DNA of 64,000 nt, from NCBI GenBank assembly GCA_020072785.1, contig JAIQGG010000004.1:124001-188000 (forward strand). Reading direction: 5' to 3'. Made by a program: the position numbers and the translations under genes. The notes below the pieces were generated by a model that was not told where the DNA came from, searched no databases, and saw only the letters and a list, made by a program, of their open reading frames with translations. Positions 8,679-18,029 of this stretch are shown here, in pieces (the first letter of the stretch is position 1; every line of letters starts with the position of its first letter). Source of the stretch: Terriglobia bacterium. GTDB taxonomy: Bacteria > Acidobacteriota > Terriglobia > Acidiferrales > UBA7541.

Positions 8679-9212
8679 TCAGGACGGTTTGCGTAGCCGG
8701 TCCAGCAGGAAGAACAGCCCGACGGCCACGACGCCGTTCACCAGCGCCGCCAGCCCCAGCCGCATCGTGAACCAGGTCTCCGGCTGCGCCAGCAGCAGGC
8801 GCTTGATCAGCACAATCACTCCCTGATGCACCCCGAAGAAGACAATGGTCAGCGCGAAGCGGCTTGCCGGGTGTTCCGTGTCCAGCCGCCCTCCGATGGA
8901 CGAGGCGATGAACCCGATCACTGTTTTCGCAATGCCGTAAAGGCCCAGCGGCGACTTGCTGAGGCTGTCCTGCAACAGTCCGATCACCATCCCCAGTAGC
9001 AGCCCCGTCGAGGGATTGCGCCGGCTCAGCCCGAAATACGTGGTCAGCAGCAGCGGCAGGTCCAGGATGGCGGCCTTGGGGAAATAGACGGGCAGCAGCG
9101 CCTGCAGCACCAGCGCCGCCACCATGGTCGCCACCACCGCCCCGGCGCGAAACTTGTGCACCTCGATGTGTGTTTCCGTGTCCAGGCGCAGGTCAAAGGT
9201 ATCGTTGTTCAT
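8679..9212 (-). CDS. mreD: Rod shape-determining protein MreD
   Basis: Inner-membrane protein of the elongasome that interacts with MreC. The 177 residues carry five or six hydrophobic helices with the typical short loops (LLTTYFGLSRRNPSTGLLLG, LQDSLSKSPLGLYG). Its ATG overlaps the mreC stop by 4 bp, so the two are translationally coupled. In related genomes mrdA usually follows directly; here 4 kb of opposite-strand genes intervene. Confidence 0.92.
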   Translation of the reverse strand: MNNDTFDLRLDTETHIEVHKFRAGAVVATMVAALVLQALLPVYFPKAAILDLPLLLTTYFGLSRRNPSTGLLLGMVIGLLQDSLSKSPLGLYGIAKTVIGFIASSIGGRLDTEHPASRFALTIVFFGVHQGVIVLIKRLLLAQPETWFTMRLGLAALVNGVVAVGLFFLLDRLRKPS

Positions 9213-16386: not shown

Positions 16387-17238
16387 ATGGCTTCACGGGC
16401 TCTATCTATACCTCTGCCGAATGGCTCGCGCATTTCGGTTTTGCATACCCTCCCGTTTGCGCTGATTCACTTGGCCGCGCTCTCGGTCTTCTGGGTCAAA
16501 TTTCACTGGTCGTATCTGATCGTCTGCCTGGCCCTTTACTGGGTGCGCATGTTCTTCGTCACCGCGGGCTACCACCGCTACTTCTCGCACCGCTCCTTTA
16601 AGACCAGCCGCGCGTTTCAGTTCGTCATCGCCTGGATGGCCATGTCCTCCAGTCAGAAGGGTATCCTCTGGTGGGCCGCCCATCACCGCCATCATCACCG
16701 CCATTCGGATACCGACGAGGATCTCCACTCCCCCACGCTCTTCGGCTTCTTCTGGTCCCACGTCGGCTGGTTCATCTCCGACAAGTACAACGGCACGCGC
16801 ATCGAATACATCGGCGACTTCGCCAAATTTCCCGAGCTGCGCTGGCTCAACAAATATCATCTCGTGCCTCCCGTGGTTCTCGCCGTGGTGCTCGCGCTCA
16901 TCGGCGGCTGGGGGCTCTTCCTCTGGGGCTTCTGCCTGAGCACCGTGCTCCTTTGGCACGGCACGTTCACCATCAATTCGCTCTCACACCTCTTCGGCTC
17001 GCGCCGCTACGTCACCTCGGACACCAGCAAGAACAATTTCGTGTTGGCCCTGGTCACCCTCGGCGAAGGCTGGCACAACAACCATCACCACTACATGGCC
17101 GCCGCCCGCCAGGGCTTCTTCTGGTGGGAAGTGGACATCACCTACTACGTGCTGAAGGTGATGTCTTGGGTCCGCATCGTCCGCGACCTCCGCCCCGTGC
17201 CCCCGCACCTGCTCTCCGAAGAACACGCCTCCGCCTAG
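16387..17238 (+). CDS. Acyl-CoA/acyl-lipid delta-9-type desaturase
   Basis: Integral membrane di-iron desaturase that puts a double bond into a saturated fatty acyl chain using O2. All three histidine boxes are present: HRYFSHR near residue 63, HHRHHHRHSD near residue 100 and HNNHHHY near residue 232. Hydrophobic helix pairs lie between them. The 283 residues are the short form typical of bacterial stearoyl-CoA 9-desaturases, without a cytochrome b5 domain. The oxygen requirement implies an at least facultatively aerobic life. A lone gene, 195 bp upstream of the selenoprotein candidate. Confidence 0.93.
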   Translation: MASRALSIPLPNGSRISVLHTLPFALIHLAALSVFWVKFHWSYLIVCLALYWVRMFFVTAGYHRYFSHRSFKTSRAFQFVIAWMAMSSSQKGILWWAAHHRHHHRHSDTDEDLHSPTLFGFFWSHVGWFISDKYNGTRIEYIGDFAKFPELRWLNKYHLVPPVVLAVVLALIGGWGLFLWGFCLSTVLLWHGTFTINSLSHLFGSRRYVTSDTSKNNFVLALVTLGEGWHNNHHHYMAAARQGFFWWEVDITYYVLKVMSWVRIVRDLRPVPPHLLSEEHASA

Positions 17239-17432
17239 CTTGTCTTTCTTGCTTGCCTGCGTCCCCGCAGGATGTGCCGCCTCGCACGGCGGCCATTCCC
17301 ATTGCTTCTGATTTTCTGCTACCCTGCAGCGTCATCTCGCTCAGCGCGGCCCGTCCGCGGCCCATGCGAGGACCGCTGCGAAGCGCTGCTGGGCAACGCA
17401 CGCCGCGAACGCGGGCTCACGGGAGGCACCCC

Positions 17433-18029
17433 ATGGAACCGATGTACCTGAAAGACGTGGAAAAGGCGCTGGGCAGCGATTTCCGCGCCCGCATGATCGC
17501 CAGGATGCGCGAAGCCGGCCGGAGCGTTCCCCAGATTTTCCACATGTTTGCCTTCAAGCCCGGCGCTACGGCCCATCTCGAGCGCTATACCCAGGAGGTC
17601 ATGCGCGGCCCCTCGCCTCTCTCGCCCGGCATGCGCGAATTGATTTCTGCTTTCACCTCCAGCCTCAACCATTGCCCGTTTTGAACCGGCACCCATTCCG
17701 CCGGTGCGGCGGAACTCCTCGGCGACCGGAAACTGGTGGACGCGGTGCTTCGCGACTTCCGTTCCTCGCCTCTGTCGGAACCCGAAAAGGCTCTCTTCGC
17801 CTTTGTCGAGAAGCTCAATGACCAGCCGCACGCGATCTCCCAGCAGGACGCGGACACGCTCAAGACCGCCGGCTGGTCCGACGAAGCCGTCTACGACGCC
17901 ATCACCGTCTGCGGCCTCTTCAATTTCTACAATCGCTGGTGCGATGGCGCCGGCGTCCACGCCCTCTCCCCGGAGGAATTCGTGGAATCCGGCAAGCGCC
18001 TTGCCCGCTTCGGCTACATCGGGGGATAG
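17433..18029 (+). CDS. AhpD-like peroxidase-related selenoprotein candidate (UGA as Sec84)
   Basis: Carboxymuconolactone decarboxylase/AhpD-type protein, a family of thiol-dependent alkylhydroperoxide reductases. ATG 17433 follows GGGAGG with 6 nt spacing. The frame reads MEPMYLKDVEKALG to SSLNHCPF, meets TGA at 17682-17684, and continues in the same frame as TGTHSAGAAELLGDRKL to GYIGG at 18029. The TGA takes the place of the second cysteine in the family motif CxxC-x3-H, giving C81-P-F-U84. Both sides are typical family sequence, so the TGA is very likely read as selenocysteine. A SECIS-like hairpin lies at 17696-17714. Without Sec insertion the product would be an 83-residue fragment. Selenocysteine machinery genes are not in this window. 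Confidence 0.85.
17696..17714 (+). promoter_or_regulatory. Bacterial-type SECIS hairpin downstream of the UGA codon
   Basis: Perfect 7 bp stem TTCCGCC / GGCGGAA with apical loop GGTGC. The loop begins 18 nt after the UGA and starts with GG, which meets the known rules for bacterial SECIS elements (loop 16-37 nt after the UGA, G among the first two loop bases). E. coli fdhF has GGUCU in this position. Confidence 0.8.

Follow-up and report, generated by a model that had tools for sequence, protein, structure and literature searches.

The 64,000-nucleotide stretch of DNA analyzed here (the window), from a soil acidobacterium, contains a gene whose reading frame holds a single TGA, and the question it raises is whether this codon ends a decaying gene or is read as an amino acid, and if so, as which one and in what kind of protein. 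Comparative sequence analysis indicates that the gene almost certainly encodes an AhpD-like thiol/selenol oxidoreductase of the TIGR01926 family (carboxymuconolactone decarboxylase, CMD, superfamily), in which UGA codon 84 would be translated as selenocysteine (Sec) by the organism's own machinery with the help of a predicted SECIS hairpin.

Gene structure and family assignment

The gene and its immediate surroundings comprise the following features.

17433..18029, forward strand: AhpD-like (TIGR01926, CMD superfamily) predicted selenoprotein gene, 198 aa including Sec84, with 13 homologues that have the same TGA
17682..17684, forward strand: in-frame TGA, predicted to be read as Sec (U84), residue 2 of CxxU-x3-H; Cys in the Cys-form homologues L045 and L046
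17421..17426, forward strand: Shine-Dalgarno-like GGGAGG, 6 nt before the ATG at 17433, as read from the sequence
16387..17238, forward strand: neighboring fatty-acid desaturase family gene, which adjoins the homologue in L017 and lies ~1.4 kb from it in L018

The frame consists of 198 codons, ends with a TAG stop and has its lone in-frame TGA at codon 84, in the context NHCPFU-TGTH. Translation with table 11 halts at this codon and would give an 83-residue product. The read-through protein scores 112.9 bits with the NCBIfam model TIGR01926 'peroxidase-related enzyme' (curated cut-off, 81.8 bits), in a match that covers residues 20-169 and spans the TGA, and 30.1 bits with Pfam CMD (cut-off, 23). 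These matches bear out the initial annotation, which had described an AhpD-family frame continuing unshifted on both sides of a single TGA. It had assigned the TGA to position 2 of CxxC-x3-H, as CPFU-TGTH, in agreement with our reading of the frame; the ribosome binding site that it had seen before the start corresponds to the GGGAGG, and the sequence on either side of the TGA is intact, as expected from its claim that the frame has no further defect.

A 337-aa GTG frame (window positions 16671-17684, forward strand) ends at the same TGA and is an in-phase upstream extension across the desaturase gene; it could cause gene callers to choose the wrong start and predict a truncated protein. No desaturase match was found in the available flanks of the homologue loci other than L017 and L018, and the gene neighborhood yielded no functional link, the desaturase being nearby in the nearest relatives only.

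Active site and predicted activity

Three further residues of the putative active site were located in the gene.

17673..17675, forward strand: codon of Cys81, which should be the partner of Sec84; equivalent, from the motif spacing, to Cys130 of M. tuberculosis AhpD, and invariant in 14 sequences
17637..17639, forward strand: codon of Glu69, which precedes Cys81 by 12 residues, the distance also found between Glu118 and Cys130; invariant, with the spacing taken from sequence
17694..17696, forward strand: codon of His88, which follows Sec84 by 4 residues, the distance also found between Cys133 and His137; invariant

Glu69, Cys81, U84 and His88 are thus all invariant in the 14 aligned sequences. 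The E-x11-C-x2-C/U-x3-H spacing and the CMD superfamily are shared with M. tuberculosis AhpD, in which Cys130 and Cys133 are catalytic and the proton relay includes Glu118 and His137 (PMC3141380). The two proteins differ in that AhpD has Cys133 where the window protein has Sec84, and in that the window protein belongs to the peroxidase-related branch, whose catalytic hairpin occupies a different place along the chain from that in AhpD proper. We saw no ahpC partner adjacent to the window gene. Cys133 of AhpD reportedly attacks the peroxide, and Cys130 is said to resolve. Since Sec84 aligns with Cys133, the peroxidatic cysteine, it would replace the attacking and not the resolving residue. The initial annotation had put Sec in place of the catalytic or resolving cysteine; the catalytic site stands, while 'resolving' has to be dropped, as that role belongs to the counterpart of Cys130.

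In the mechanism that we propose, UGA codon 84 would be decoded by the genome's own SelA, SelB, SelD and tRNA-Sec, aided by the predicted SECIS hairpin directly downstream. The Sec84 selenolate, activated by Glu69 and His88, would then attack a peroxide or another oxidant, the selenenic acid would be resolved by Cys81 to a selenenylsulfide, and the latter would be recycled by a cellular thiol reductant.

The gene may also encode a selenoprotein with a role other than that of a peroxidase, such as a thiol-disulfide adaptor or an enzyme whose target is a different oxidant or an electrophile. The AhpD of M. tuberculosis serves as an adaptor to AhpC, the AhpD-like protein PA0269 has weak peroxidase activity (a single case; PMC3141380), and the CMD superfamily is diverse, with the debrominase 6ohi among the solved relatives. 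We regard such a role as possible, though rather unlikely, given that the spacing of Glu69, Cys81, Sec84 and His88 equals that of the AhpD proton relay and that Sec in place of the attacking cysteine favors the direct reduction of an oxidant.

Selenocysteine machinery and other TGA-containing genes

The initial annotation had proposed a search for selA, selB, selC and selD, and the complete set was found in the window's own genome (3.73 Mb in 11 contigs, 98.9% complete). It encodes SelA (555.6 bits), SelB (356 bits, 641 aa) and SelD (349 bits), the last with an in-frame TGA of its own (AAGU-AAKL), as well as two tRNA-Sec genes with a UCA anticodon (66 and 61 bits), located 3.6 kb apart. Both tRNA genes score above the Rfam gathering score, and each has a G before CCA (G73).

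Other genes of this genome also have a TGA in frame. The formate dehydrogenase alpha subunit (L074:1501-3381; G000:C1:37048-38928) has it within NRTUHAPSV, and we take this RTU-HAPSV position to be the usual Sec site of FdhA. Two genes of the CMD superfamily, L072:1501-1986 (G000:C2:200023-200508) and L073:1501-1947 (G000:C2:1493276-1493722), contain a TGA in a CxxU motif (NDCHYU and MSCNYU, respectively), without the His at +4. The nearest NCBIfam model for both is NF053654 'YciW-related (seleno)protein', far under its cut-off; they are possible additional selenoproteins.

UGA could also be read as an amino acid other than Sec, such as Cys, by way of the selC*-type tRNA-Cys with a UCA anticodon that occur in some bacteria (PMC7609411), or Trp, by suppression, and the genome does have two UCA tRNAs. 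Such decoding is nevertheless very improbable here. Both tRNAs score as tRNA-Sec over the gathering score and have the G73 needed by tRNA-Sec, whereas selC*-type tRNA-Cys have U73 (PMC7609411, PMC5330540). In addition, SelA and SelD are present, and further TGAs of the genome fall at the standard Sec sites of SelD and FdhA (RTUHAPSV). Sec is thus the preferred reading of UGA codon 84.

The two tRNA-Sec genes (L036:5065-5163 and 8714-8812, that is, G000:C2:1112064-1112158 and 1115713-1115807; Rfam match) are divergent at paired positions with the pairing preserved, as compared by eye. Their anticodon stems are CGGGC/GCCTG and CCGGC/GCCGG, and their variable arms GCGG/CCGC and TCGG/CCGA. No second tRNA-Sec gene was detected in any of the 24 same-genus genomes searched, in each of which one or none was seen; several tRNA-Sec genes per genome are already known in other bacteria (PMC5330540). 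Additional matches to the tRNA-Sec model (L011-L015) were rejected, being tRNA-Ser, tRNA-Leu and others according to ARAGORN. Two SelB-like matches were likewise rejected as a second SelB: the sequence of the one at C7 and its position after fusA identify it as EF-Tu, and EF-Tu is also the most likely identity of the one at C3, a partial match that adjoins a tRNA-Thr/Tyr/Thr/Gly cluster.

Candidate SECIS element

A candidate for the RNA element that would assist Sec insertion was found downstream of the UGA.

17696..17714, forward strand: predicted bacterial SECIS hairpin with an 8-bp stem (UUCCGCCG/CGGCGGAA) and a GUG apical loop, lying 19 nt downstream of the UGA, with an energy of -12.5 kcal/mol

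The stem length, loop, distance and energy of this hairpin are all within the published limits for bacterial SECIS elements (PMC13188914). A SECIS-like hairpin is present in every aligned homologue, in most cases as a 6-bp stem with a GGUC loop in the corresponding location. The four innermost pairs in the consensus register are retained in 14 of 14 sequences, the loop region has a conserved G in the aligned homologues, and the synonymous sites of codons +8 and +9, which form the 3' arm, are fully conserved. No compensatory changes in the stem were found among the 14 aligned sequences. Synonymous recodings are as stable as the hairpin in 4-5% of cases for the window gene and its two nearest relatives and in 3-20% for the others, a borderline result because the gene is G+C-rich. 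For the 42 nt that follow the UGA, the energy of folding is no lower than in synonymous recodings, and so it is the local hairpin, not the wider fold, that points to a SECIS. As a putative SECIS element, the hairpin is supportive and not decisive.

Conservation of the TGA and selection

In the scanned genome contigs we identified 13 homologues, with 55-91% identity to the window protein, from Acidobacteriota and Myxococcota, including isolates of Corallococcus. The TGA occupies exactly the same codon in all 13, and none has another defect. A Gemmatimonadota homologue from a complete record, a Gemmatirosa plasmid, also has a TGA at this codon. The latter gene (L092:301-888; NZ_CP007130.1:356440-357027) is unannotated and resides on a 1.04-Mb plasmid of Gemmatirosa kalamazoonensis.

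The dN/dS ratio between the window gene and L017 is 0.21 before the TGA and 0.23 after it; for L018, the corresponding values are 0.22 and 0.30. Both halves of the gene are under purifying selection, and with ratios of about 0.2-0.3 the segment 3' of the TGA has to be translated. That the TGA is a true stop in a decaying pseudogene, as the termination of the table 11 frame at codon 84 and the lack of strong significance of the SECIS hairpin by itself might suggest, is refuted in practice, its probability being close to nil, by the TGA at the same codon in 14 homologues of three phyla without other defects and by a dN/dS of 0.23-0.30 downstream of it, and the full Sec machinery of the genome also stands against it. 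The initial annotation had interpreted the TGA as a Sec codon and not as a sign of decay, and had suggested looking for other disruptions in close relatives; the relatives keep the TGA and have no other defects, and this interpretation holds.

Co-occurrence with tRNA-Sec and cysteine forms of the protein

Across 247 evenly drawn Acidobacteriota genomes, tRNA-Sec is present in 38 of the 41 that have TGA forms of the gene versus 1 of the 12 that have stop-free forms only (Fisher p=5e-8, for genomes that are related and thus not independent). Most of the stop-free forms in this count come from a more distant branch. The three genomes with TGA forms but no tRNA-Sec match are all draft assemblies, with roughly 130-410 contigs.

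Two full-length homologues, L045 (1501-2079) and L046 (1501-2082), have a CEFC motif whose second Cys coincides exactly with the Sec site. Alignment of Cys-containing homologues across position 84, another check suggested at the outset, placed Cys there in both of them and in solved relatives. In a midpoint-rooted tree of 23 proteins, L045 and L046 are paired (95/86) and nested beside Sec forms (98/96, 96/93). tRNA-Sec was detected in the genome of L045 and was not detectable in that of L046. Because these two proteins are nested among Sec forms, their Cys is most simply explained as a reversion, and a Sec-to-Cys change is probable. Such changes are rare in bacteria and have been documented mainly for FdhA and SelD (2026 review, PMC13188914). 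With moderate confidence, we propose both that Sec has been replaced by Cys at least once in this subfamily, in L045/L046, and that Sec decoding in the window's genome involves two divergent, apparently functional tRNA-Sec genes.

Relation to known selenoproteins

AhpD-like selenoproteins with a CxxU motif were described in a Sargasso Sea study of 2005 (27 proteins; PMC1088965) and in an ocean (GOS) survey of 2008 (AhpD-like 1 and AhpD-like 2; PMC2398784), and a 2026 catalogue contains the entry 'AhpD-like protein, TIGR01926, CxxU' (PMC13188914). The window protein shares with this catalogued family the NCBIfam model, the CxxU motif and the single Sec, a likeness by model and motif, and shows no essential difference from it, the window member coming from an acidobacterium. 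The window gene is an ordinary fresh member of a selenoprotein family known since 2005, not the first of a new one. The AhpD-related (seleno)protein family NF041238 (AhpD_rel_CFYUT) has the CxxU motif and partial homology, with a match restricted to residues 60-177; membership was rejected, as the score is 37.2 bits versus a curated cut-off of 175. Among solved structures, 2pfx, 6k40, 3c1l, 2oyo and 2prr give profile matches over most of the chain (E 1e-21 to 1e-25), and the two shown aligned have Cys at the Sec position of the window protein; CxxC occurs there in solved relatives such as 2pfx.

Annotation pipelines that take TGA as a stop would truncate the window gene and others like it. The distribution of its homologues points to an antioxidant-type selenoprotein of the TIGR01926 family that is widespread in Acidobacteriota and has members in Myxococcota and Gemmatimonadota.
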